Positions 8,501 through 55,100 of a stretch of DNA of 64,000 bases are shown here, one piece after another. The stretch comes from Macrocystis pyrifera (lineage: Eukaryota; Sar; Phaeophyceae; Laminariales; Laminariaceae), in contig JASSKH010000003.1 of NCBI GenBank assembly GCA_031763025.1, positions 1,603,001 to 1,667,000 of the forward strand, written 5' to 3'. The stretch's first letter is position 1; the number at the start of each line of letters is the position of its first letter. The notes beneath the pieces were generated by a model that was not told the origin of the DNA, searched no databases, and was given only the letters and a program-made list of their open reading frames with translations. Position numbers and translations under genes: made by a program.

Positions 8501-11500
8501 GCCTCGCCTTAAAAAAAAAACAAACGATATACGTCATTAATGTCAAGCAAGCCGATCTTGTTCAGAGGGAGGAGCAGGGGAAACACTCGGCTCGATATTT
8601 TCTCTCCCGACGTCGCTTGAATCTGATGAATCGGCTCCGATTCGCAGCCAGCCATACCTGGCACTCATCAACACGTATTCCATCTGGACCTGGTTTTGTA
8701 TCCAACATAATGTGGGCGGTGGCAGTAAAATCGTAAGAGGAGACCGTGCGATCCATCGTCTATTATCCACTCGTTCGCTACAGCAGCAATACAGCAGGAG
8801 CACAGCGGCGGTAGTACAGCAGGGGGCAGGGGTACGTACGACTTCGCCACAATTAGTCAATGAGCCGGTACGTATGTACATATATCTACAGGCACCAATA
8901 TATACGGACGAACAAAGGAATCTACTACACCAGATGCCAGGTATGGGTATGGTGTGGGGTACGCACGCACATTTCGACGATAGTTGACGAGGGAAGAAAC
9001 TGCTGGACCCTTCTGGGAATAAAAGGGCAAAGCCACTGACCGTGGTGGGGAGGGGGGCGGAGCAGAGAGCCTGCTTACTATGTCACCCGGATCTGAGTTA
9101 CGACTACTAGAAGAGAGGGAGACATAAAAGAAGGGGCGAAAGACCATAAACGGGGTGCAAAAACGAACGAACAAAACACACATGAGTCTACATCCTGCTG
9201 TACAGGCAAGTTGTATCAAGTATTAAATATGAATCCAAAACACGCGACACCGCGGTCGCTTGGAGTTCCGTCTTCTGCGTTTTCGCCGTTTTCACTAAAA
9301 ATACTAAAGTGCGAGGGAGTAAGTACGTACCGTATGTATGACACTACTGTACCACACTAGGGTGATAAGACAACACACCCCCGCTGGTATACTCGACAAT
9401 GAGCGATGCGTCCATGGAAAAGTCTCGTCGAGATCTTTCTAAGGACACCGCTTTCGCTGCGTGTGTGTGTCCCCTGTTTTGTTGTTGTTGTTTTCTTCAC
9501 CGTTCTTCCTACCCGTCGACATCCAGCACCACCAGTGTCCGTGCCGATTCTTCAATCCTAGAGAGATACAAGTTCTGGAGGAAATCGGCTCGGAAATTCG
9601 GTCCAGGGTGTGTGTTATCTATCACCCGTGTAATACCATACATACGGCAAATATCGGTGCTACTGCTGCTGTGTACTAGTACTACTACTGCTGTGTTGTA
9701 CAACAGCACAGCACAGCACAGCACAGCACAGCACAGCACAGCACAGCACAGCACAGCACAGCACAGCACAGCACAGCACAGCACAGCACAGCACAGCACA
9801 GCACAGCACAGCACAGCACAGCACAGCACAGCACAGCACAGCACAGCACAGCACAGCACAGCACAGCACAGCACAGCACAGCACAGCACAGCACACAGCA
9901 CAGCACAGCACAGCACAGCACAGCACAGCACAGCACAGCACAGCACAGCACAGCACAGCACAGCACAGCACAGCACAGCACAGCACAGCACAGCACAGCA
10001 CAGCACAGCACAGCACAGCACAGCACAGCACAGCACAGCACAGCACAGCACAGCACAGCACAGCACAGCACAGCACAGCACAGCACAGCACAGCACAGCA
10101 CAGCACAGCACAGCACAGCACAGCACAGCACAGCACAGCACAGCACAGCACAGCACAGCACAGCACAGCACAGCACAGCACAGCACAGCACAGCACAGCA
10201 CAGCACAGCACAGCACAGCACAGCACAGCACAGCACAGCACAGCACAGCACAGCACAGCACAGCACAGCACAGCACAGCACAGCACAGCACAGCACAGCA
10301 CAGCACAGCACAGCACAGCACAGCACAGCACAGCACAGCACAGCACAGCACAGCACAGCAGCACAGCACAGCACAGCACAGCACAGCAGCACAGCACAGC
10401 ACACAGCACAGCACAGCACAGCACAGCACAGCACAGCACAGCACAGCACAGCACAGCACAGCACAGCACAGCACACACAGCACAGCACAGCACAGCACAG
10501 CACAGCACAGCACAGCACAGCACAGCACAGCACAGCACAGCACAGCACAGCACAGCACAGCACAGCACAGCACAGCACAGCACAGCACAGCACAGCACAG
10601 CACAGCACAGCACAGCACAGCACAGCACAGCACAGCACAGCACAGCACAGCACAGCACAGCACAGCACAGCACAGCACAGCACAGCACAGCACAGCACAG
10701 CACAGCACAGCACAGCACAGCACAGCACAGCACAGCACAGCACAGCACAGCACAGCACAGCACAGCACAGCACAGCACAGCACAGCACAGCACAGCACAG
10801 CACAGCACAGCACAGCACAGCACAGCACAGCACAGCACAGCACAGCACAGCACAGCACAGCACAGCACAGCACAGCACAGCACAGCACAGCACAGCACAG
10901 CACAGCACAGCACAGCACAGCACAGCACAGCACAGCACAGCACAGCACAGCACAGCACAGCACAGCACAGCACAGCACAGCACAGCACAGCACAGCACAC
11001 ACAGCACAGCACAGCACAGCACAGCACAGCACAGCACAGCACAGCACAGCACAGCACAGCACAGCACAGCACAGCACAGCACAGCACAGCACAGCACAGC
11101 ACAGCACAGCACAGCACAGCACAGCACAGCACAGCACAGCACAGCACAGCACAGCACAGCACAGCACAGCACAGCACAGCACAGCACAGCACAGCACAGC
11201 ACAGCACAGCACAGCACAGCACAGCACACAGCACAGCACAGCACAGCACAGCACAGCACAGCACAGCACAGCACAGCACAGCACAGCACAGCACAGCACA
11301 GCACAGCACAGCACAGCAGCACAGCACAGCACAGCACAGCACAGCACAGCACAGCACAGCACAGCACAGCACAGCACAGCACAGCACAGCACAGCACAGC
11401 ACAGCACAGCACAGCACAGCACAGCACAGCACAGCACAGCACAGCACAGCACAGCACAGCACAGCACAGCACAGCACAGCACAGCACAGCACAGCACAGC

Positions 11501-13394
11501 ACAGCACAGCACAGCACAGCACAGCACAGCACAGCACAGCACAGCACAGCACAGCACAGCACAGCACAGCACAGCACAGCACAGCACAGCACAGCACAGC
11601 ACAGCACAGCACAGCACAGCACAGCACAGCACAGCACAGCACAGCACAGCACAGCACAGCACAGCACAGCACAGCACAGCACAGCACAGCACAGCACAGC
11701 ACAGCACAGCACAGCACAGCACAGCACAGCACAGCACAGCACAGCACAGCACAGCACAGCACAGCACAGCACAGCACAGCACAGCACAGCACAGCACAGC
11801 ACAGCACAGCACAGCACACAGCACAGCACAGCACAGCACAGCACAGCACAGCACAGCACAGCACAGCACAGCACAGCACAGCAGCAGCACAGCACAGCAC
11901 AGCACAGCACAGCACAGCACAGCACAGCACAGCACAGCACAGCACAGCACAGCACAGCACAGCACAGCACAGCACAGCACAGCACAGCACAGCACAGCAC
12001 AGCACAGCACAGCACAGCACAGCACAGCACAGCACAGCACAGCACAGCACAGCACAGCACAGCACAGCACAGCACAGCACAGCACAGCACAGCACAGCAC
12101 AGCACAGCACAGCACAGCACAGCACAGCACAGCACAGCACAGCACAGCACAGCACAGCACAGCACAGCACAGCACAGCACAGCACAGCACAGCACAGCAC
12201 AGCACAGCACAGCACACAGCACACAGCACACAGCACAGCACAGCACAGCACAGCACAGCACAGCACAGCACAGCACAGCACAGCACAGCACAGCACAGCA
12301 CAGCACAGCACAGCACAGCACAGCACAGCACAGCACAGCACAGCACAGCACAGCAGCACAGCACAGCACAGCACAGCACAGCACAGCACAGCACAGCACA
12401 GCACAGCACACAGCACAGCACAGCACAGCACAGCACAGCACAGCACAGCACAGCACAGCACAGCACAGCACAGCACAGCACAGCACAGCACAGCGCAAGA
12501 GCTACCTGGCGCAGCGTGGCGCAACGGCCCCACTCAGACGGGGCAAGACTACCCTCGCCCAACACATCCGACGATGGTACTCTCGGACAGGAAACACGTA
12601 CGTACGCAAGACTTTCTTCTTGCTATCTGTCTCTCTCAGCGGGCTCCATTGGCGCCTCTCTGGCCTTTCAGAGCTCCCACTTGAACAACGCCTTCTTCAC
12701 TTACATGCCGGCGAGCTTCTTTTTTTTTTCCTTCATTTTCTAGAAAAAGAGACTTCTATTGTCATTTTTTTTTGTGGGCCTTTTTTTACGGATGCGAGCA
12801 TGCTGTCATCGAGCATCTACTGCAGGCACAACACAGCACACCACAGCGCAATCAGCTCAGCACAAAGCAGCAAAGCAAGTAGGCGCCAATCAGAGCGCAA
12901 TAGCGCAAGCAAGCAGACAGATTTGGCGAGAGCCAGCACGTCGTTGAGCACTTTTACAGCTCGCTGTGTTCTCAAAACAAACCAAGAAATCGAAATCTTC
13001 CCGGCCTACAAAAGTTCTGGTAGCATGGAGCTCTTGGCACTTGCAAGTCATCAGTTTGCACCTGAAACCGTGGACCTCTTTCTGTCCGCTCCATCCGCCT
13101 TTTCTTTTCTTCTTTGTGAGCGAGCGTAGCGGGCGGGAGAAGCCGCCCGCGGAGCGATGCGCCTCGTAAATACCTACACCTCTCATGCAATCGTAACCTA
13201 GTACATACATCAACACCAAAAGCATACGATAGCTGTCGCTACCGCAGCAGGAAGTCGTACATCAGACTACAGTAGTAGCTGTAACTGTCGTCAACCTGGG
13301 CGTTTGTTGAAAATTCGGAGAATCGTGTAAACAAGATTAATCTCGGATAGGACGGCGGTCGTACATGTTAGGCTTCAGCCAGCTCGGAAGGGGT

Positions 13395-25965: not shown

Positions 25966-28900
25966 CTACAAGGTGACGGCGAAGTCGTTTCCGCCACGAA
26001 TGTGGTGCCTCCGCCTCTTAGCGCCACGTTTCGCCGCCCCCACTCGCTTCTCGCCTGCCGAGGGAGCCCCGCCCCGTGCTCTCGCCCCTGCGGCAGCTTC
26101 ACCGCGTAATGACTCCGTCTCTAGAGGCACCTCGGTCTCAAGAGGCTTCGTCGTTGCGCAGAAGAATGCCACTTTCGGGGATTCGCGGGTTTCTCGTATT
26201 CGAAACCCGAGCTTTTCCAGGGTTTTCGCGAAGGAGGCTCGCGTCGTTCGCGTGCTTTTGGTGAGGCAGAGGAGAGGGAGCATGAGAAACAGGTGCCCGC
26301 CAGGCCGAAGGTGGTCTCGGTAGCCTGCCAGCATTTCTCCGCGTCGCTTGGCCGTCGGAAGGCAGTTGATCACCATGCTGGATCGTTGAGGGCACGGGAA
26401 AGGCAGGCACGCGGGGATAATATGCACGTCAGCAACCGTCTAAGGCGTGTCATTTGTAAGGTAATTAGTCGATCTCAACTTTCAAGAGGCTTGTCTGGAA
26501 AACGGACGTAACGCCACCAAACACGCTACCTTCTGCACGATATCCTATGGATAGCATCCGGTTCTGCCACACCGTATAACCGCGTATCTCAGTCAGACGT
26601 GTCTCGCCGCTACCCCCAAGAAATCAGCCAGCTGCCTCATCGCCCGCCTAGCCCATGATTGTGCATCCTTGCGAGTCTACGGCTTAAAGAATGCGAGTCA
26701 ACGCCTTGACTGAATTGTCCCAACTTGGTTTGACGCCCCCCCCCCCCCCAACCGATCAGCATTATATATATATTATGTATGGGTTGGGTTGGCGTCGGTT
26801 GGCAACGACACTGTAAAACATGCCGCTCACTACGTGAGTAGACATACAGGGTACCGTTTTTTTTTTTTTTTTTTTTTTTTTTTTGGCGGTCGCCCGCAGC
26901 TGGTCGTCTAGTTAGATCATTTGTGCGAAGTAAAGAACCTTTACTCTGCACAAGGGAATTGATCGTATCACGTAGTGTTTAAGGTAAGGCACCCAGGAGG
27001 CAGTTACATAGTACTCCCATTGCTGTCGCTGGAAGTGGCCACACCGGAAATTAAACTAACTCATTGAAGCTGTCATCCATATGCAAGTCCGCCTCACAAG
27101 CGGTTCTTAGTAGGATGCAGCTCACCCTTCATGCGACTCGCCGGACACCTCACGGCGCTTCGCGCTTGGCGCAAGCAATGTCTGCCTGGTCGGTGAAAAC
27201 CCGACATGCTCCGTCCCGGCATTGTAGGGATGCGAGGGGCTATGGTCATACGACTACGGCCATGCATGAGATCGAGTACATCTCTCCTATCGAGTACACC
27301 CCCCCCCCAACCGATCAGCGATAACAGGTAACTATAATGCTGCGTACATTAAATACCTGGTAATTGCTATTGTGTATTAATACACAACTGCTAGGACGAC
27401 AAATGAACGCGACATTGACCAACGACGATGATTGGAGTGGTTGCCCTCTTACCTTGAAGACACTACGTCGTACTCTCCCGACGGTGGGAGGTCGAAGAAA
27501 TCTCGTTCCTCGATGCTTGGGTGCTGGGACTTGAGGTCGATCGCTCTGACGTCCAGCCACGGCACGTCCAACAGCCGAGAGTTGATCGCGCCCACCTGTA
27601 AGGAAACCCCCAACCGCCAACATAAGCTCAAAAAAGAAGAGCTACTACTATTGATACCATGATAGATTATAATATAGATTATACAGCAGTAGTGCTTACT
27701 ACTATTGTAAAGAGTATGGGCGCGCAGGGCCCAAGGGCACTCGCCTCTTGGTGTCAATTTCCTGGTGGCAGCTTAGATTTCAGGACAATAGTTGCTACTA
27801 TAATATTATTAATATTAGTCCAAACTACAGCTCTGCCATTGATACGACAATTATGTAATTCGAACCAAGAGAATCATACATACTGCCTGGCACAGGTTTA
27901 GGTCTAGCTCCACACGACATCACGTAATCGCCCACGTACCTGGTACGAGACACAAGGCGCTTCGCTCCGCGGGCGGCATACGCCGCTCGCTCAGGAAGGG
28001 AAAGTACATCATCAATTTATGCGAAGCGCACAGAGGTCCATGATTGAATATGTTTTTTCTCATGATTGATCGTAGTTGCGAACTGGCGACTTGATAGTAG
28101 TGCCAAGAGTCCCGCCGCCATGCTCCAGGAGAAAACAGCTCGGACGCGCTTCTCGTCGCGGGCGATTTTCCGCTACGCTCACTCACATGTCGTACGTACG
28201 TACATACCCCAGGTAGGGTTTGTACTTATTTTCTTCTTTCGATATATATTATGCTCTATGTCTGTACTCGTATGTATGAAAGCACAGCACGCCACACAGC
28301 AGCACCCCAAAAACAATGAAAATGAAGCCGAAAATTTCGGAAAGAAAAAAAATCCCCGTCCCATCTCGTGTAATAAGTCCTGCCTGATTGGAACACCTTA
28401 CGCCGGTCAAGAAGAAAAAAAGAAAAAAATCAAACAGCAGAGCTTCTCTCTCAGCCTCGTACGCCGCCCGCTCCTCTCGCGACCATCTCGCCACCGATTC
28501 AGTTCGTGTAAAGCTTTCCTCCCTCTCTTCCACAGTGAGCCTCGTCGCCCGCTTCGCGTGAAGCCCGGTGCTCCCCGTGGACCTCGTTCGCCAATTCGCA
28601 ATGTTGGTGCTCTGACTGCCCCACTCTCACTGTTATTTTTAGTTTCGTCGCAAAAATAAGCACCACTTGAATTTTATTTGCTCATGAAAACGACCCTTAC
28701 AGAACTACTTACTTAGATGTCGATCTCTGAGCGTGCTCGGTTGGTACATCCTTGGCCTCTCAGAGCTCCCACTTGGAAATCGCCTCCTTTATTACTTGCC
28801 GGACCCTTCCAGCTGGTCTTTGTTTTCTCCATTTCTCGTCGTACTTTCAGTCCTTCTTTCCTTTCTTCTTTCGTTTCGTGTGCGTGCGTGTACTCCAAGC

Positions 28901-31900
28901 ACGGTTGCGTGGGCGAACCCGGCACCGTCGCGGGTGTCAGCGGATGCTGGCGGGTAGAGGGGGAGTTGCAAGGAGCGCGGTCGCCGCTTTCGTGCCTAGG
29001 CGTCGCGTGTGCCTCGAGACACGAGGGATGCATCAATAGGCTCTGTCTGGCCTCCATTTGTGATTTTTGATAGAGTACGTACGAGTATTTAAGGGTCGTT
29101 CGGTATTGTACGATAATATTCAAGCGGTGCTTATTTTTGCGACCGGGCTGAAAGTCACAAGAGGGAGGTACCCCGAATGAGCACCAACATTGTCGAGCTC
29201 GCGTCGAGGTCCATGGTGAGCACCGGGCTTCACGCGAGGCGGGCGACGGGGCTCACTGTGGAAGAGAGGGAGGAAAACTTTACCCGGACTGAATCGGTGG
29301 CGAGATGGTCGCGAGGGGGGCGGGCGGCGTACGAGGCCGAGAGAGAAGCTCTGCTCTATGGTTTTTTTTCTTTTTTTCATTTTTCCTTTTTGACTGGTGT
29401 AAGGTGTTCCAATCAGGTAGTACCTTATTATACGAAAGGGGACGGGGATTTTTTTTCTTTCAGAATTTTTCGGTTTCATTTTCATTGTTTTGGCTGTGTT
29501 GCTGTGCCGTGCTGTGCTTTATCTTTCGTACATACGAGTACAGACACAAAGCATATCGAAAGAAGAAAATAAGTACCCTATCTGGGGTATGTACGTATGT
29601 ACGACATGTGAGCGAGCGACGCGGAAAACCGCCCACGACGCGAAGCATATGTGGCGTCTGAGCTGTTTTCTCCTGAAGCATGGCGGCGGGACTCTTGGCA
29701 TTATCAAGTCGCCAGTTTGCAACCACAGGGGTCATGAAAAAAGCAATAATATTCAATCATGGACCTCTGTCCGCTTCGCATAGTTTGATGTACTTTTCCT
29801 TCCTGAGCGAGCGTAGCGGGCGGCATAGGCCGCCCGCGGAGCGAAGCGCCTTGTATACTCGTACACAGAATGGCCGGAACCACATCAGGAGGCCAGACAT
29901 GCTTCTCTCGTGTCTCTAGGCACACGCGACGCCTAGCCACGAAAACCGCGACCGCGCTCCTTGCAACCCCCCCTCTACCCGCCAGCACCCGCTGACACCC
30001 GCGACGGTGTCGCGCTCGCCCGCGGAACCGTGCTCGGAGTACACGCACGCATACGAAACGAAAGAAGAAAAAAGGAAAGAAGGACTGAAAGTGCAAAGAG
30101 AAATGGAGAAAACCAAGAGCCGCATGAAAGGTCCGGCGAGTAATAAAAGGAGGCGATTCCCAAGTGGAAGCTCTGAGAGGCCAGGGATGTACCAACCGAG
30201 CACGCTCAGAGATTGAGATCTAAGTAAGTGGTTCTATAACACCTGGCAATACCCAGAGCTTTTGGCTTGATTACAACAACCGAACCAGGTGCAGCCCAGC
30301 ATGGCCGAGGAACAAGGTTATCGATAACAACAGTAACGGTAGTACAGGCTATGTACAGTGTCTACATACCAGGGCAGTAACATGCTCGCATGTTGAGCAC
30401 TGGCACAGGCTTGAGGGGACGCCAGCACCCTCAGGAATGCGTCAAGTATCCGCGTCTAGGCGTTTCGGCAACGCACACATACGACTTGGAATTAGAGCAC
30501 GGGACTTGCAACGCAGATCCATACAGTATTTCGTAGTTGTAGTATAGTTAATGCAAATACGTCGTACACAAGAGTCGTGAGCTTTTAGCCGTTTTTTTTC
30601 CATTTTTGGACCCAATAACTCACTACCCATCACGCGAACATAGTTTTGTCTCCCGCAGCATCTTCCACGACGACTACTGAAGAGATACCGTCATATCGTC
30701 CGCTTGGAGAACAGAAATATTCTCGTGATGGACATTTGTTCATCGGTGATGTTTTTGTGCTACGAATGGTTCCTTGCGTGAAATGAAACATTTCAGCGTT
30801 TGGGCGAGCTTTTGGTGTTACTCGCTCGCAACTTCGAGTACACGAAAACGCCTCGTGAGTCGTTTCTTGCTGCCTAAGACTGCCGTCTGGCGCACCCGAC
30901 GCGCCCACACACCCCATCAGGAGCATCCCTCAATTTCGCGGGCTGTAGCTTCCTGTAATAAGCTGTAGCTGTCCGCAAGGGAAGTAAGTGCAAGCGTTTA
31001 GTTGGGGGTTGTTTTTTTTCTAACTTTGTGCAATTTTTTACCAATTTCGACAACTGCAGCACCTCTAAGTCGAGGTGTAGGCCTCTGTTGAGAAATTGCG
31101 GGAGATCAATCCCGAGAGAAACACAAGCTCCTGTGATGAACCTCCAATAAGTCACCGTCGCTCTCCAGTAAGCACGAACCAGCCCAAGTTATAGACGCAG
31201 CGTGTTAACTTAGCGATGTTTTTTTTTTCTGTTCCAATAAAACATCTAGAGATTAGAGTGACCGGAAACCCGGGGACCAGGAGACGCTTACCTGGTACGT
31301 GCCAGCGTGGCCTTGACGTTCTTCTCATACGGGGTACGAATGAACACTTACCAGGTACCAGGTATCAGGTGTATACTATTACGGGGGTCCATAGTTAACG
31401 GGACCAAATTTTGTTAGTAAAAATAGTCAAATATATAGGTTTTTATGTACACCATAGGTCCTGTTAACTATGGACCCCCGTAATAGCTCGAGTCTTGCAT
31501 CACCATTCGGGGCTTGGGGCGACGATTACTGATATACAGGTATGGATCTCGTTGTCTCTGGGGTGCTGGAGAGCTTCACCGTGCCAGCACGTCTTCGAAC
31601 ATCCCATTCTAGATATAGTATTGAAACAGGCAGGCAAGGACCACAGGCCGCATATGATGTAATATCGTGTTCATCACCTCAAGCACGCGTAGCAGAGGTT
31701 CTCCTTTGGCCGGCCGCAGTCCCATCCCGCTCAGCTGCTGCGTCACCCACTTGGACGTGTTGTGAAAGCTCACGGACAGCAAGCTCGCACTCTGGTACGC
31801 CTGCCTCCCTCCCATCTCCTTTAGCTCGCGATGCAGTCGCTGCAACTGCGCCTGCTTGTCTACCGCTTTTCCCGAGGCTACCTCGTCGGCCTCCTTGGTG

Positions 31901-33406
31901 AGCTTGTGGAAAGATGTCACTATCTGGCGCGCGCGTTTGCGGGACTTTACCGGCGGGGGGACCTGTTGCCGCGAGCAATCGAGAATGCATGAGCACGATA
32001 CCAGAGGGTACGCATGTACCATACGTGCAGGTGGGTGGAAAACGGTCCGTGGCATGTTTGAACCTATACAGTACGCGACATGTGTTAAGAACTTAATAGT
32101 TGAGAAGTTCAGGCTAAAAAGTTTTTACATAATTCAAGAATTTACAGATAAGCGTTTGTGCTCAGCAAGGACACCACTCGAAATCCTATGTGCTATTAAT
32201 ACCTGGTCCTTAGGACTGCAGTCCCGTTTTGGGGACAGACTATGAAGAAATTTGAGGGGTTCGTCCGCAAAACGGTACTGCAGTTCTAAAAGGGCTACGA
32301 ACCTGTGCTCAACGTTGACATCACAATAAGACGCCAGTCTTGGCCAAAAAAGGAGGTTATTAATTGCTGTCGCCTACTGCTGTACCATGGTACATGATAG
32401 TGGTGTATGGCAAGACAGACGAAAACGATAAGAAGCGTTTGTATCAACTATTTCGTGTGCCCGAAGACGGAAAATAAATAATTCTCTCTATTTCCAGTAC
32501 GAAATAATTAAATTGAAATTGGGGTCAATTTATTTAATTGTTTTGGTCAGATAGCATTTCCGAATCGAAAAATAAATAATTACCGAAAGGTTCCTCGAAG
32601 ATTTTATAAGAAACTAAGAAAGCACGTCAGCTGTGAGTTCAACCGATATATTTGAATAATCATTTCGTGTGCCCGATGACGGAAAATAAATAATATTCTC
32701 TCTATTTCCAGTACGAAATAATTAAATTGAAATTGGAGTCAATTTATTTAATTGTTTTGGTCTGATAGCATTTCCGAATCGAAAAATAAATAATTACCGA
32801 AAGGTTCCTCGAAGATTTTATATATATATATATATTTATAAGAAACTAAGAAAGCACGTCAGCTGTGAGTTTAACCGATATATTTGAATAATCAGTCGAA
32901 CGAAAAAAAAAAAAGCAGGGTCTCATGCGGGTCAATACATGCAAAAACCGTTTCGCAAAGCGAATCCAACAACAGCATGCAAAAGAGTACTGTGATTGTC
33001 ATATAAAAGAAGCGGGGAAGTTTATAGGTACTATTAATATATTTTTAATATTAATAGTAAATGGAGGGACGCAACAGTATGTCCTCCATCTGCGACCGAT
33101 GTTCAGAAGTACCACAGCAGCAGCTGCAGTGTGGTGGTGGGCAGAAACTTGAAAACAAGGGTTCTTCGAAGGGTCCTTCGAGATGCGGTTGACAAGCTAC
33201 TCTTAATATTATACTAATACTACTGATGTCTGTATTCGTATTGTCATCGTACAGCAGTATTGCAGCTCTACGAGTAGTCTACTACCTGGTGTCCATACCT
33301 GTACACCTCCACAACGAACGCGAGAATAAACGTCTGGTACGTGATATTCCCGCTCACTGCTATTAATATTAATAATTACCAGGGGGATGGGCTTGCGCTT
33401 CCCCAT
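25966..33406 (-). CDS. BMT2: 25S rRNA adenine-N1 methyltransferase / SAMTOR-like protein (BMT2), four exons
   Basis: Complete minus-strand model: 33406-33380 (ATG, nine codons), 31962-31678, 27595-27453 and 26377-25966 (TAG), 288 codons, all phases matching (0, 0, 2+1). Family knowledge: fungal Bmt2 methylates an adenine of 25S rRNA in the nucleolus, and the animal homologue SAMTOR is an S-adenosylmethionine sensor for mTORC1. Motifs in order: a basic N-terminus with KSRKRARQIVTSFHKLT; YQSASLLSVSFHNTSKWV; the SAM-binding start LRVLEVGAINS; the acidic-loop region IDLKSQHPSIEERDFFD; then SMVINCLPTAKRRGEML and LRPGGHLFLMLPLLCL, ending in GFRIRETRESPKVAFFC. The C-terminus is a basic Ala/Arg/Gly-rich tail of about 60 residues. 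The 4.1 kb intron 27596-31677 hosts the nested Helitron-like elements. Whether it acts as an rRNA methyltransferase or a sensor cannot be decided from sequence. Confidence 0.93.
27120..27320 (+). repeat. Dispersed repeat R5, copy 2, ending in poly-C
   Basis: Same blocks as 5575-5745, preceded by GGCGCTTCGCGCTTGGCGCA and followed by a C run and CAACCGATCAGCG. That end also occurs at about 26750. Confidence 0.8.
27951..30232 (-). mobile_element. Helitron-like element, outer copy interrupted by the inner one
   Basis: On the minus strand this copy starts near 30232 (TCTCTGAGCGTGCTCGG) and runs to about 29880, is broken by the inner element, then continues from about 28700 to its 3' hairpin at 27951-27990. 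The two halves match the halves of 28705-29856 in reverse. Located in the 4.1 kb intron of BMT2. Confidence 0.6.
28705..29856 (+). mobile_element. Helitron-like element, inner copy (nested)
   Basis: A 1.15 kb unit starting at TCTCTGAGCGTGCTCGG (28724) and ending after a GC-rich hairpin (GCGGGCGG / CCGCCCGC, about 29816-29837) followed by GGAGCGAAGCGCCTTGT. No terminal inverted repeats were seen. It lies inside the oppositely oriented copy 27951-30232. It carries a coding-like segment (about 29240-29365, VEEREENFTRTESVARWSR and AAYEAEREALL) shared with the outer copy. No helicase or Rep was found, so it is non-autonomous and the class is tentative. Confidence 0.6.
31376..31486 (-). mobile_element. 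Hairpin family 1 copy, near-perfect arms
   Basis: CTATTACGGGGGTCCATAG at the left and CTATGGACCCCCGTAATAG at the right, 111 bp in all; inner arms GTTAACGGGACC / GGTCCTGTTAAC. Confidence 0.92.
32209..32295. mobile_element. Hairpin family 2 copy
   Basis: ACTGCAGTCCCGTTTTGGGG and TGCAGTTCTAAAAGGG arms around a short A/T-rich loop. Confidence 0.82.
32440..32896 (+). repeat. Two-copy tandem duplication, ~215-233 bp units
   Basis: TATTTCGTGTGCCCGA...TATTTGAATAATCA is repeated almost exactly (about 32440-32663 and 32664-32896); the second copy gained a TATATA expansion. In BMT2 intron 1. Confidence 0.92.
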
Positions 33407-33544
33407 ATTGAAGTGGGCTTGGTCGCTCGATCTGATGTTAGCCGGTGGATCTCAGTCGTTGCTCAGGATCGAATCACTTGCCCGCATGTATAGCAGTGGT
33501 TCGGGAAGGGGTGCGTGCTGCGAACCGGCTGCCATGTGCAACCA
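33407..33544. promoter_or_regulatory. Compact divergent promoter BMT2 / PFA-DSP-like gene
   Basis: Only 138 bp separate the BMT2 start codon (minus) from the first in-frame ATG of the phosphatase-like gene (plus). An in-frame TAG at 33491 rules out a longer N-terminus of the plus gene in this exon. The transcription start sites must lie here or in upstream non-coding exons. No core element was recognised. Confidence 0.45.
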
Positions 33545-35976
33545 ATGTTGGGTGCAACCGAAGGTTGCTATTGGAGTACGATGTATCCTGGATGGCTGTT
33601 GCTATACGGGAGTGCTGGTTCAAATCACCCCCACGAGCAGAATATGGGCCAGAATATGCACCCCCAGCCCCATCCATCAGGCCACGTTGCACGGCACTAC
33701 CCAAGCACAGAGGTGATGCTGGCCCACGCAGGCTACAGCAAGGGCTCTGTGTGTATCGAAAATGTGGACGCTGTGGAGATAGTGACGTCACAGAATGGTG
33801 CTGCCCAGGCTGAGGACGAAGAGGATGGTACATACGACGAGCCAGGCTTCGGGCTTGGATTGCCTGGCCTGTCATCGCTCTCTCTCCCCACCGAACACAT
33901 GGTCGTGCCTCCTCTTAACTTCTCCATGGTGAGAGTGGCTAAATCATAAACGTGTGGTGGTGTTTGCTGCTCTGGCTTTGCTTGCTGAATTTCGCTCGAG
34001 TTCGCATATACACCCTAGAACTGTCACTGTTCCAGCCCAGCAGGTGAACGCAGAACCACAGCGTGAACATTTTGAATGTTTGAATATCCGAAGATTTTCA
34101 GATTTTTACCCCTAGGATCGTAGGTGCTGGTATCGCATGAGGATATACAAGTGCGTATGTTATGCTTAAGACCTTACCTGGCCCGCTGCAGCTGCTTTTA
34201 TTGTTGTCGTGGTTGTTGTTGTTATTGTTGTTTTGTTGTATATAATGTACAACAAGTTCACAGTTTTAGTAGTACAGCTGTGCACAGAACTATATACTGC
34301 TGTTGTGGGATTTTTTTCTTCTTTTTCCCCCCCCTTTGCCACTCTCGCGCTCTGTGACGGTATACTATTAATATACATTTTGTCTTCCCGTTGACCTGCC
34401 TGAGGTCAATAAGTACCAGATACAGTACTGGGGTATGCTACTCGTACGGACACCGGGGAGTTACTTGTTCTCTCTTTTTTCTTTCAGTATAAATACGTGT
34501 GAACGGCTGAAACCTCTTCAGGCTATCTACCCCACGTCCGCTGCTGATGTAATGTTTCCTTGGTAGTGGTCTCTCTGGTTTGTACGAGCTCATGTATTTG
34601 CCTGCATGCTCAGCCTGGTATGATTCGTAAATAGCCGTGCCACAAAGTGCCACAGCAAAGCCGTACGAAACCTTTTTGCCGCCTGTCATCAAAGGTATCT
34701 GAGGGCGTCTTCCGAAGCGGCTACCCGATCGCATGCAACTTCCCATTCCTGCGTCGACTGGGACTCCGGAGTATACTCTGCCTGTGCCCTGAAAGCGTCC
34801 TTCCTGGATCGATAGCGTGGGCCAGCGACTCAGGAGTCAACATGGAGATGTGCGACTTGGGAGAAAATAGCCCTCCATTCGTGTCCATGCCTCTCTCTGC
34901 GATGAGGACAGCAGTGGAGTTTCTTTCTGGTGAGCGCAATAAGTTGTCGACGGTCCCTCTCTCTTTTGCTCATCGCCTTATCCGCGGCTTTTACTCCTCG
35001 TGTCTGGTGTTGAAATCACTGTTGTTTCGTTGCCAAAAAAAGGGCGGCCAGCGCCTAGACTTACTTCTCGCACGTACCTCATTCTGTTTTGCTGCTCGAA
35101 ATGTAGCGCCTTGAACTCGCCTCGCCGCAAGCGGCGCAGCCCCAGAATGCCCTCAAGGGAACGCGGGGCACGGCATCATCATATACCGTAGTCGCCCGAC
35201 TGCTGTGTTGCTTTGTGAGACTAGACTTCCCTCAACACTCGTTTCATCTTCTTTTTGCGGGCAAAAACAAGAGGTGAGCAATCTTGACAACCCGAGTGGG
35301 CGTTCCCTGTTCGAATATGCACGGGTATATACTTCTTTTCTACGGCGCTTGGTCAAAAATGCCGTGCAAGTTGGTCTCTAGCGTATAGATCGTGACACCC
35401 AAGCCCTCCCAAGTGAAGCCGCCCGTAGCTACCCATTTCCTCGCGGGTCGCGAAGGACTGCTACGACGGCACAGCAAGTGGGTCTTTAGCTTCGAGACTT
35501 CAAGATAAGGGCACCCACAACCGTTTGGCTTCCGTCTATTATTATATCCCGGCTGCGAGCGATTTTGTATGGGCTGGTGCATCAATCGCACGAGGATGAT
35601 GCTGATTCCCGCACCGAGAGCGAGGAACGGTCCATGCCATAAGTACGCGCCCTTGAAGTTGTACTGTTTACGCGGAAGATCTAACTACCAGCGCATTTCT
35701 CACAAGGACATCATGCGCCCCCCCCCCCCCCCCCCCCGTCGCTTGCCCGTCCCCAATGCCCCCCTCCGGTGTGTTGGACTTTGGACGCTCAAAGATCGTC
35801 GGAATCGGCCAATACTGGTGCACTGCCTCACAGGCAAAACTCAGACAGGGTGCGTAGTAGGCTGCCTTCGGCGAAGGCAAAAATGGTCGATGGGCGCTAT
35901 TTTTGACGAGTACGCGCGGTTCGCAGGACATTCGGCCAAACCGTTGGACATGCAGTTCATTGAGCTGTTCGAGTGA
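33545..35976 (+). CDS. PFA-DSP / Siw14-like tyrosine phosphatase family member lacking the P-loop arginine
   Basis: Three exons with exact phase: 33545-33928, 34695-34929 and 35795-35976 (TGA), 266 codons. Residues 1-115 are a Pro/His/Gln-containing and then acidic linker. The domain begins at PPLNFSMVSEGVFRSGYP across the first junction, followed by NFPFLRRLGLRSILCLCPE, PPFVSMP and, in exon 3, RPILVHCLTGKTQTGCVVG, then QKWSMGAIFDEYARFAG and the usual ending QFIELFE. Family knowledge: these atypical dual-specificity phosphatases (yeast Siw14, plant PFA-DSPs) use a CX5R P-loop, and Siw14 removes the 5-beta phosphate of inositol pyrophosphates. Here Cys217 (TGC 35824-35826) is kept, but the CX5R position is Gln223 (CAG 35842-35844), and two further loop positions are Leu and Thr instead of basic residues. 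An inactive or altered enzyme is therefore likely. Intron 2 contains a poly-C run at about 35717-35737. Confidence 0.92.
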
Positions 35977-52100: not shown

Positions 52101-55100
52101 ATACCGATTTGATTAAATCTTCGTTTTTCGCTTCGACGTGTCGACTGTTACACCGAAGTCGTGTACGAACACGTGCCAGGTATCGGTTTTACGTTTCGGT
52201 AGGTATGATATCGTGCAGTAATATGTCGGCCCACCCACGAAAAACGCCTAGTGTGACCAAGCCTTTAGAACCTTGGTTTGGCACGACCCTTGGAGCAACC
52301 TTGAGCATAGGCTAATATGGAGGATTTACTGTGGTGCGAATTTCTTATTTCAATTTTCTTACCGCACCCCACAAAGGGAGCCTTTTGTTCTTATTAGTAA
52401 TACCTCGAAGGTTCGTTATTCGTGGGCCTGTGCTGTATCGTGGTTAAGTGTGGTGTCGATCTCGATTCTCGTTTGATATCTGTCGCTGATATCGACCGAG
52501 GACGACTCGGTAGTCTCCGCGCCGAACTGCCTCTAGGCTACGTGTAGGCGCTTGTACTGCTTGTTCGTTTAATCGGTTTGCTGTGGAAACGCGACGAGTT
52601 GAAGCTTTATTTTGTGTTGATAGAGCTGCTCAAACAGCAGCAGCTGCCGTATCTCACGCTTTCGTGCTTAGGTTTAGGTTTATTAGATGGGTAAATTGGT
52701 ATACCTACATGTACTTGTGGCATTTATTATATGCACGAGTACGTGTATGGTCTACTGTGGTCTATACGAGGTAATGTAACCTTAGCGCACATCGATGCGG
52801 ACAGGTGGATATTGATAGGATTGCTCCAAAGTATGCCACCTCCATCTGCTTGCCATGTGCTTCCTCCTCCTTGTTCGCAGGGAATACACCACCGCTCTTG
52901 CTGTCTAGACTATACCAGGTGTTAGATTCCATAGTACAACCGCAAGCCACCACTAAGCCGAGCTGGGTACACCACAAGCAGGTTTACGTAATAGCTCGAC
53001 TACGGTCTGGCTGAGAAATGAATGCGGGGATAATGCGCTGGATTTTCTGGAGCCTGTGTCGTGATGATTTCATAGCCCTCTGTGCACCAGCTACGGCTAT
53101 GAGTTGGCTGGCAAGAGGAAGCCAACTACAGTAGTCATTAGGTGGATGACGAAGTAAGCCAACTAGTTATTAGTTGCATAGCGAACTAAGCCAACTTATG
53201 GACTTCACGGCTGGTTGTTGGTTTGGTGGCAAAGTATGCCAACTCGTCATTTGTTGGGTGGCGAAGTAAGCCAACTAATTGATCTCACGGCTGGTTATTA
53301 TTGCGGGGGTCCATAGTTAACAGGACCTATGGTATACATAAAAATATATATATTTACTTATTTTTACTAGCAAAATTTGGTCCCGTTAACTATGGACCCC
53401 CGTAATAGCTGGGTGGCAAAGTAAGCCAACTAGTTGTATTCGTTGGGTAGCGAGTAAAGCCAAAAACAGTAATTATTATTAATAGTTGAGTGGCGAAGTA
53501 AGCCATCTTTAGTAATCGTTAGTTCGGTGACGAAGTATGCCAGCACGTTATTACAGTAGGTAAAAATAGAGAAATGTATAGGTTTTTGTGTGTACCGTAG
53601 GTCCAATCTACTATGGTCCCCCGAAATAGTAGTGTTTGTTGTGAACAGGCACGAATTCAAGCCAGAAACGCGCCAGTCGGGTACAAACACACAGAAGAAC
53701 CCCATGCAAATTTCACATCTGTATGCCACAACACCCGTCTCCTCCTTTTCTTCCTCCTCCTTCCTTCCTGCCCTTGCTCCATGGTTTTCGTTAAAAAAAT
53801 GATCTGTTGATCCTGTTTTTTCTCACACCTCACATGCCACACACACACGTCTCCTCCTCCTCGTTCCTTCCTTCCCCGTGCTCCAATCGTTTTCGTGAAA
53901 ACAAAAAAAAAAAATGCTGTAAAAAAATAGAACGACCAACGAGGAGCTCCCCAGCCGGCAAGAGTATGACACGGTGTGCCTCTTCGCTGATGTGTCGGGT
54001 TTCACGAAGTTGTCGGAGGCGATGATGGTATCGTCGGAGGGGGTGGAGGGGCTGGCCAGGCACCTCAACTCGTACTTCGGGCAGATGGTTCGGATTATCG
54101 CCTCTGAGGGAGGCGACGTTTTCAAGGTGTGCGTTTGTGTTGTGTTTTTTTTTTTTTTTGTGTGTGTGTGTGTGTTTTTTTGTGGGTGTTTTTTGTGTTT
54201 TTTATCGTACGTGTATTTGATATTTGACCCTCTCAAGAATTGCCCGCACCCACAGTCGTTTTTGGGAGACAAACTGCTTTGGATTACCGTAGATTGTTTT
54301 TCCCAGTACGACTGTGTTATTTTCGGGGGACCATAGTGAATAGGACCAAATATTGTTCTTAAAAATAGGGATATATATAGGATTTTGTGTGCCGTAGTTC
54401 TCATTTACTATGGTGCCCCGAAATAGTGGCGTCTAGTTTATTTGCTTGGCCGACCTTCGACGAAACGGTTGCTACCGTAGTCCACACTCTTGATACGTGA
54501 TTTCCTCTCGAAGCTTGCGGAGACGAGTAGGTGGCAAAAGAAAAAGTTGTAAAATTCGATCTCACGGCTAAGGCGTCTCTTTTCCTTTCAGTACATCTTC
54601 ATTTCGATAATTTCCCGGAGAAATTCCCAGGCAGTCGGGGGTCAGGGTCAGAGCTAGGGTGTGTTGTGTGTACAGAGTGGTACAGGGTAGTCCAAGAATA
54701 TTGCGACGACTTCGATTGTTGCTGCGCCAAGGTCTGTACATGCGTACATGCCCTCTCTGTGTGAGCGTGCTCTTCTGTTTATACGATTGTTTCGAATACA
54801 TATCCCTCCTCGAGAAATTTCCCGGTTAGGATGTTTAGTGTTTTGAGTCGGGTATAGTGCGACAATTTTGTCGAATTTGGTCTACATGAATTCATGCCCT
54901 CTGTATGAGCGTGTTCTTGTGGTCTGTCCATTGTTTCCATATAATAAACGTATCGATATCCAGGATACCCAGTATCCGTGTGTGCGTGTTCTCTTCACAT
55001 GAATCCGTTCTTTCTACCCGTCGACATCCAGCACACCCAGCGTCCGTGCCGATTCTTGATGCTATGATAGAGAGATGCAAGCTCCGTCGTCACAGCACCG

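Follow-up and report, generated by a model that had tools for sequence, protein, structure and literature searches.

The window, a 64-kb stretch of DNA (G000:C211:1603001-1667000), carries a gene of the PF03162 family (PFA-DSP/Siw14-type) whose product lacks the catalytic arginine of the P-loop and most of the basic residues of the substrate pocket. Somewhat in preference to its rivals, we regard it as a retained, non-catalytic member of the family that acts as a protein partner or regulator. Membership of PF03162 (Y_phosphatase2) is unmistakable in the sequence and the domain appears complete; the profile matches with an E value of 1.8e-41 and 141.9 bits over positions 1-147 of 165, well above the curated cut-off of 27 bits. 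The best solved relative is AtPFA-DSP1 of Arabidopsis (E 7e-46), with 69 identical residues (47%) in an ungapped alignment of 147 residues. Yeast Siw14 is identical at 63 of the 147.

The gene lies on the forward strand at about 33,494-35,976 of the window and consists of three exons. Its parts, with residues numbered as in AtPFA-DSP1, are the following.

33494-33928, forward strand: exon 1, an open frame that finishes with the codons for VVPPLNFSM, where the PFA-DSP domain begins
33929-34694, forward strand: intron 1, phase 0, which begins with the donor GTGAGAGT and ends with CATCAAAG
34695-34929, forward strand: exon 2, from VSEGVFRSGYP to AVEFLS, the first half of the phosphatase fold
34863-34871, forward strand: equivalent of the WPD loop, Glu118 Asn119 Ser120 as mapped on the AtPFA-DSP1 numbering; Gly-Asn-Lys in the three intact enzymes
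34930-35794, forward strand: intron 2, phase 1, which begins with GTGAGCGC and ends with CTCAAAG; its position is common to the intact C209 paralogue
35795-35976, forward strand: exon 3, with the P-loop, the helices and the C-terminus QFIELFE, stop codon TGA included
35821-35850, forward strand: P-loop HCLTGKTQTG; Cys150, Gly153, Lys154 and Thr157 kept, Leu151, Thr152, Thr155 and Gln156 changed
35842-35844, forward strand: CAG, encoding Gln at the CX5R arginine (Arg156 of AtPFA-DSP1)
35932-35949, forward strand: equivalent of the alpha5-alpha6 loop, with Ser186, Lys188 and Asp191; Lys, Arg and Asp in the three intact enzymes

Exon 1 is preceded by an in-frame stop (TAG at 33491) and contains seven in-frame ATG codons between 33545 and 33926 as candidate starts; the N-terminal part of its product has no Pfam match at E values up to 1. 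Both introns have GT...AG ends, their phases (0 and 1) match, and the joined frame is open to the final TGA, which ends at 35976. The intact frame and correct splice phases given in the preliminary description agree with these ends and with the lack of a premature stop. Its P-loop HCLTGKTQTG and the Gln codon CAG at 35842-35844 are read directly in the sequence, and its coordinates for exon 3, 35795-35976, stand.

Several other features were observed in the window. An exon of a Bmt2-like rRNA methyltransferase (31612-32124, reverse strand; E 9.9e-5) and the PFA-DSP gene are in head-to-head orientation, and an exon at 53923-54333 on the forward strand resembles the soluble adenylyl cyclase ADCY10 (E 0.00099), with no Pfam match at E 0.01. 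A large cluster at 28148-30239, imperfectly palindromic, is made up of six pairs of inverted repeats that measure 83-172 nt and are 82-93% complementary. Positions 32481-32894 contain two families of direct repeats, one of 128 nt and one of 60 nt, whose copies are 98% identical and lie 214 and 232 bases apart. A very long repeat tract at about 9500-12700 has several open frames on both strands (translations AQHST.. and CCAVL..).

The pocket positions were taken from the contact map of AtPFA-DSP1 with InsP7, and the alignment was numbered from Cys150; the Arabidopsis chain carries the expected letter at every listed pocket position, which serves as a check of the residue mapping. AtPFA-DSP1 (At1g05000; PDB 1xri, 7mod-7mom), yeast Siw14 (an inositol pyrophosphatase; PDB 6byf, 6e3b) and the C209 paralogue served as the three intact reference enzymes, and the window protein has the same domain as the two solved ones. 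At 13 pocket or catalytic positions it matches C209 at five and differs at eight. Its pocket residues are Leu151, Thr152, Lys154, Thr155, Gln156, Glu118, Asn119, Ser120, Ser186, Lys188 and Asp191. With AtPFA-DSP1 it has Cys150, Lys154, Thr157 and Asp191 in common, but the Arabidopsis residues are replaced by Arg156Gln, His155Thr, Lys151Leu, Arg152Thr, Lys120Ser, Gly118Glu, Lys186Ser and Arg188Lys. The changes thus extend beyond the P-loop to the ligand-contacting residues 118, 120 and 186, and to Arg188, which is Lys. With His counted as basic, positions 120, 151, 152, 154, 155, 156, 186 and 188 read SLTKTQSK in the window protein, of which two are basic, versus seven or eight in the intact enzymes. 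Yeast Siw14, with seven, differs from the window protein in this basic pocket and in its P-loop HCNRGKHRTG. The HCx5R signature of active phosphatases is broken (HCLTGKTQ, Gln for Arg), and the His155 of the Siw14-specific loop HCxRGKHRT is Thr. Present are the nucleophile Cys150 and the Thr157 and Asp191 of active PFA-DSP/Siw14 phosphatases.

For PTPs it is well established that losing the catalytic Arg disables the enzyme. In the excerpts of PMC9038691, on the crystal structure of AtPFA-DSP1, 5-InsP7 is contacted by Lys151, Arg152, Lys154, His155 and Arg156 of the P-loop, by Gly118, Asn119 and Lys120 of the WPD loop, and by Lys186, while Arg188 and Asp191 support His155. The importance of His155 in PFA-DSP/Siw14 enzymes is stated in the available portions of PMC9038691 and PMC10653929, and Table 1 of the former gives an activity of 1.9-5.2% after a change of His155 alone. 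Catalysis by the window protein is very probably gone, to judge from its residues, and tight binding of inositol pyrophosphates is unlikely. The protein combines a broken catalytic signature with a fold that, by its sequence, is kept, as is typical of a pseudophosphatase. The pseudophosphatase reading of the preliminary description is supported by the sequence, with His155 lost in addition to Arg156. Its further idea of a ligand-binding protein is weakened with regard to inositol pyrophosphates, since two of the eight basic pocket positions remain, and could still apply to a different ligand.

Such a ligand would be less charged, or the pocket might perform a weak, altered chemistry through Cys150. 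This explanation we judge rather improbable. It would make sense of the retention of Cys150, Gly153, Lys154, Thr157, Asp191 and Asn119, particularly of the nucleophile, which one would not expect to find in a protein that makes no use of Cys150. Both Thr157 and Asp191 matter to AtPFA-DSP1, whose activity, in the excerpted Table 1 of PMC9038691, falls to 2.2% in T157A and 6.9% in D191A, next to 0.02% in C150S. The window protein also has Cys92, which is absent from yeast Siw14 and C209 and which in AtPFA-DSP1 is able to pair with Cys150 (PMC9038691). However, all three intact enzymes have these six residues too, which may thus serve the fold, Arg156 and His155 are both lost, and there is no candidate ligand.

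Between the window gene and C209, nine nucleotides differ in the P-loop codons 151, 152, 155 and 156 (2+2+3+2), so that the loop has been rewritten rather than struck once. The single CGG to CAG substitution proposed in the preliminary description holds if the ancestral codon was CGG; from the CGC of C209 two changes are required. Because Arg156 is one of eight pocket changes and lies in a loop with nine altered nucleotides, neither one lesion nor an error in the reads is a sufficient explanation. That the Arg codon was misread or misassembled, or that a normal P-loop is encoded in an alternative exon, is hardly credible. A long homopolymer, a run of C that lies nearby in intron 2, speaks for such an error, but the eight differing pocket positions are spread over exons 2 and 3, and the 64-kb window contains no alternative P-loop-like exon with a significant match.

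The genome, 537,376,219 bases in 223 contigs, was searched with PF03162 and with the window and C209 domains. The best-scoring candidates contain at least four PF03162 genes (the window gene, C209, C220 and C195) and at least one relic. The P-loop Arg is kept in one of the four genes found and missing from three. Its bearer, C209, has seven coding exons in our model, a canonical HCNKGKHRTG loop, Gly-Asn-Lys at 118-120, Lys186, Arg188 and Asp191; over the 13 listed pocket and catalytic residues it departs from AtPFA-DSP1 only in Lys152 and in Asn151, the latter also found in yeast Siw14. The C220 gene (L007, G000:C220:11323000-11332999) matches PF03162 and reads TCSTGKYKTG, with the Cys kept and the changes His149Thr and Arg156Lys. 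It may resemble yeast Oca1, of which its C-terminal FDTDLV is reminiscent. The C195 gene (L008, G000:C195:13413500-13423400; match at C195:13418798-13418953, reverse strand) is a divergent member with HCPDGRVLTG and Arg156Leu, its domain having been traced in part (77.6 bits, profile positions 31-131 of 165). The relic (L015, G000:C211:17843465-17843575), which is excluded from the count of four, is a decayed PFA-DSP fragment on the contig of the window. It agrees with window exon 3 at 15 of 23 residues (65%) and has a stop at the position of the P-loop His and a garbled loop. One further match, C208:6861138, was dropped as a relative (E 0.247, one stop; it looks like chance).

As a control, 13 exon matches to PF00782 (DSPc) in the same genome were inspected. 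In ten of them the residue at the Arg position was legible, in L033, L036 and L039 by eye near an exon edge, while L034, L038 and L041 were left unread. Arg is kept in nine of the ten readable P-loops. Loss of Arg in three of four PF03162 genes versus one of ten DSPc P-loops corresponds to a Fisher p of 0.041 in a small sample. Two DSPc-type exons are unusual in themselves: L040 (G000:C223:6643306-6643452) has the broken signature NCRNGTSTS, with Thr for Arg, and L030 (G000:C193:10996843-10997118) reads HSFRGTGRC, with Ser for Cys, and is STYX-like. Orthologues with the same Gln were sought by pattern scans of prokaryotic and viral contigs, which yielded none. In prokaryotic genome contigs 63 stretches matched and none was a relative; of two scans of viral contigs, one gave 47 stretches with a single distant relative (25% identical, with the normal loop HCQSGADRTG) and the other 12 stretches with none. 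The N-terminal domain of a PPIP5K-type kinase is represented in the genome by two exon matches, one of which has a stop in frame. The kinase domain and the intact C209 paralogue together suggest that the inositol pyrophosphate pathway is present.

The gene probably descends from a Siw14-type gene. It has in common with C209 an intron that falls between Ser and Asp, ahead of the P-loop strand, in the same place and in phase 1, which is absent from C220; in C209 one intron, at the position and phase of window intron 2, has a GC donor. The common intron argues for this descent and means that the window gene is no retrocopy. It is also the only hint of grouping among the paralogues, and trees of five and six PFA-DSP sequences yielded no supported inner branch.

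The question whether such a gene is retained or drifting was approached through the 66 positions that are identical in AtPFA-DSP1, yeast Siw14 and C209. Of these the window protein retains 5 of the 11 that lie in the pocket and 43 of the 55 outside it, a borderline difference (Fisher p 0.057). When each intact enzyme is compared with the other two, on position sets not quite the same as those used for the window, the pocket values are 11/12, 11/11 and 11/12 and those elsewhere 55/64, 55/68 and 55/78. By these counts the window protein is conserved to roughly the same degree as the intact enzymes outside the pocket, and not inside. Neutral drift was simulated from the C209 coding sequence in 2,000 runs at each of eight distances, with substitutions only. 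A pocket loss this large together with a frame free of stops occurred in at most 0.75% of runs, indels being uncounted. A test with a three-branch codon model of three paralogues gives p 0.0036 against omega = 1 for the window branch, though the branches are saturated and the omega value is unreliable.

The first rival to retention is that the gene is a redundant Siw14 duplicate which lost its activity and is now drifting, its open frame merely unbroken so far. We consider this unlikely. The window branch is long, 1.61 changes per column versus 0.80 for C209, about twofold, which also fits relaxed constraint. The concentration of changes in the pocket (6 of 11 invariant positions lost versus 12 of 55 elsewhere) would likewise be expected first from a lost catalytic constraint. 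The truly broken relative at C211:17843465, on the same contig, demonstrates that copies of the PFA-DSP family do decay in this genome, and a lately silenced gene would look identical to a retained one. Against drift stand the neutral simulation, the intact splice ends and the 43 of 55 invariant residues kept outside the pocket. The argument of the preliminary description against simple decay thus receives moderate support from the splice sites and frame, the simulation and the intron common to C209. As grounds for refutation it had named an intact second paralogue beside an unexpressed, decaying copy. The intact paralogue exists in C209, but the window gene shows neither a premature stop or frameshift nor a damaged splice site.

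If, as we prefer, the gene has been retained as a family member without catalytic activity, its product would neither hydrolyse inositol pyrophosphates nor bind them tightly, and its surface would be what allows it to work as a partner or regulator. The partner would most likely be the intact Siw14 paralogue or another component of the same signalling pathway. As a model we have in mind the Siw14-related Oca proteins of budding yeast, several of which act as one group; in Oca2 it is the Cys that is lost rather than the Arg. The likeness to Oca1, Oca2, Oca4 and Oca6, several Siw14-related proteins per cell that behave as a group, lies in their described behaviour. In excerpts of the sources, Oca4, Oca5, Siw14 and Oca1 are predicted to form one complex that matches an experimental purification (PMC2965181), deletions of the OCA1-6 module cause a gemcitabine-specific enhancement (PMC6826991), and Siw14, Oca1, Oca2, Oca4 and Oca6 are listed among putative or defined DSPs (PMC6479966). 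More tentatively, and with a low probability of being correct, a multi-member PFA-DSP assembly may be envisaged in which C209 would supply the inositol pyrophosphatase activity, while the proteins of the window, C220 and C195, with Gln, Lys and Leu for Arg, would be the regulatory or sensing subunits, Oca-like by descent or by convergence.

In the animal pseudophosphatases STYX, MK-STYX and tensin 2, too, the fold is that of a Cys-based phosphatase and the signature is broken. For tensin 2, excerpts of PMC9464862 describe a lack of the Arg. STYX and MK-STYX have, according to excerpts of PMC8269279 and PMC9464862, lost the Cys and kept the Arg, the opposite of the window protein, which retains its Cys and lacks the Arg. 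Pseudophosphatases without Arg are thus already known, and such a loss has been little studied among PFA-DSP/Siw14-type proteins. No description of an Arg-less PFA-DSP was found in the literature searched, a body that misses most subscription journals and older family phylogenies.

In eukaryotes, inositol pyrophosphates, which are removed by Siw14-type enzymes, report the status of phosphate and energy. Should the majority of Siw14-like proteins in this lineage be dead enzymes under selection, non-catalytic subunits would be a general feature of the pathway and no oddity of yeast, and genome annotations that count such proteins as phosphatases would be wrong.
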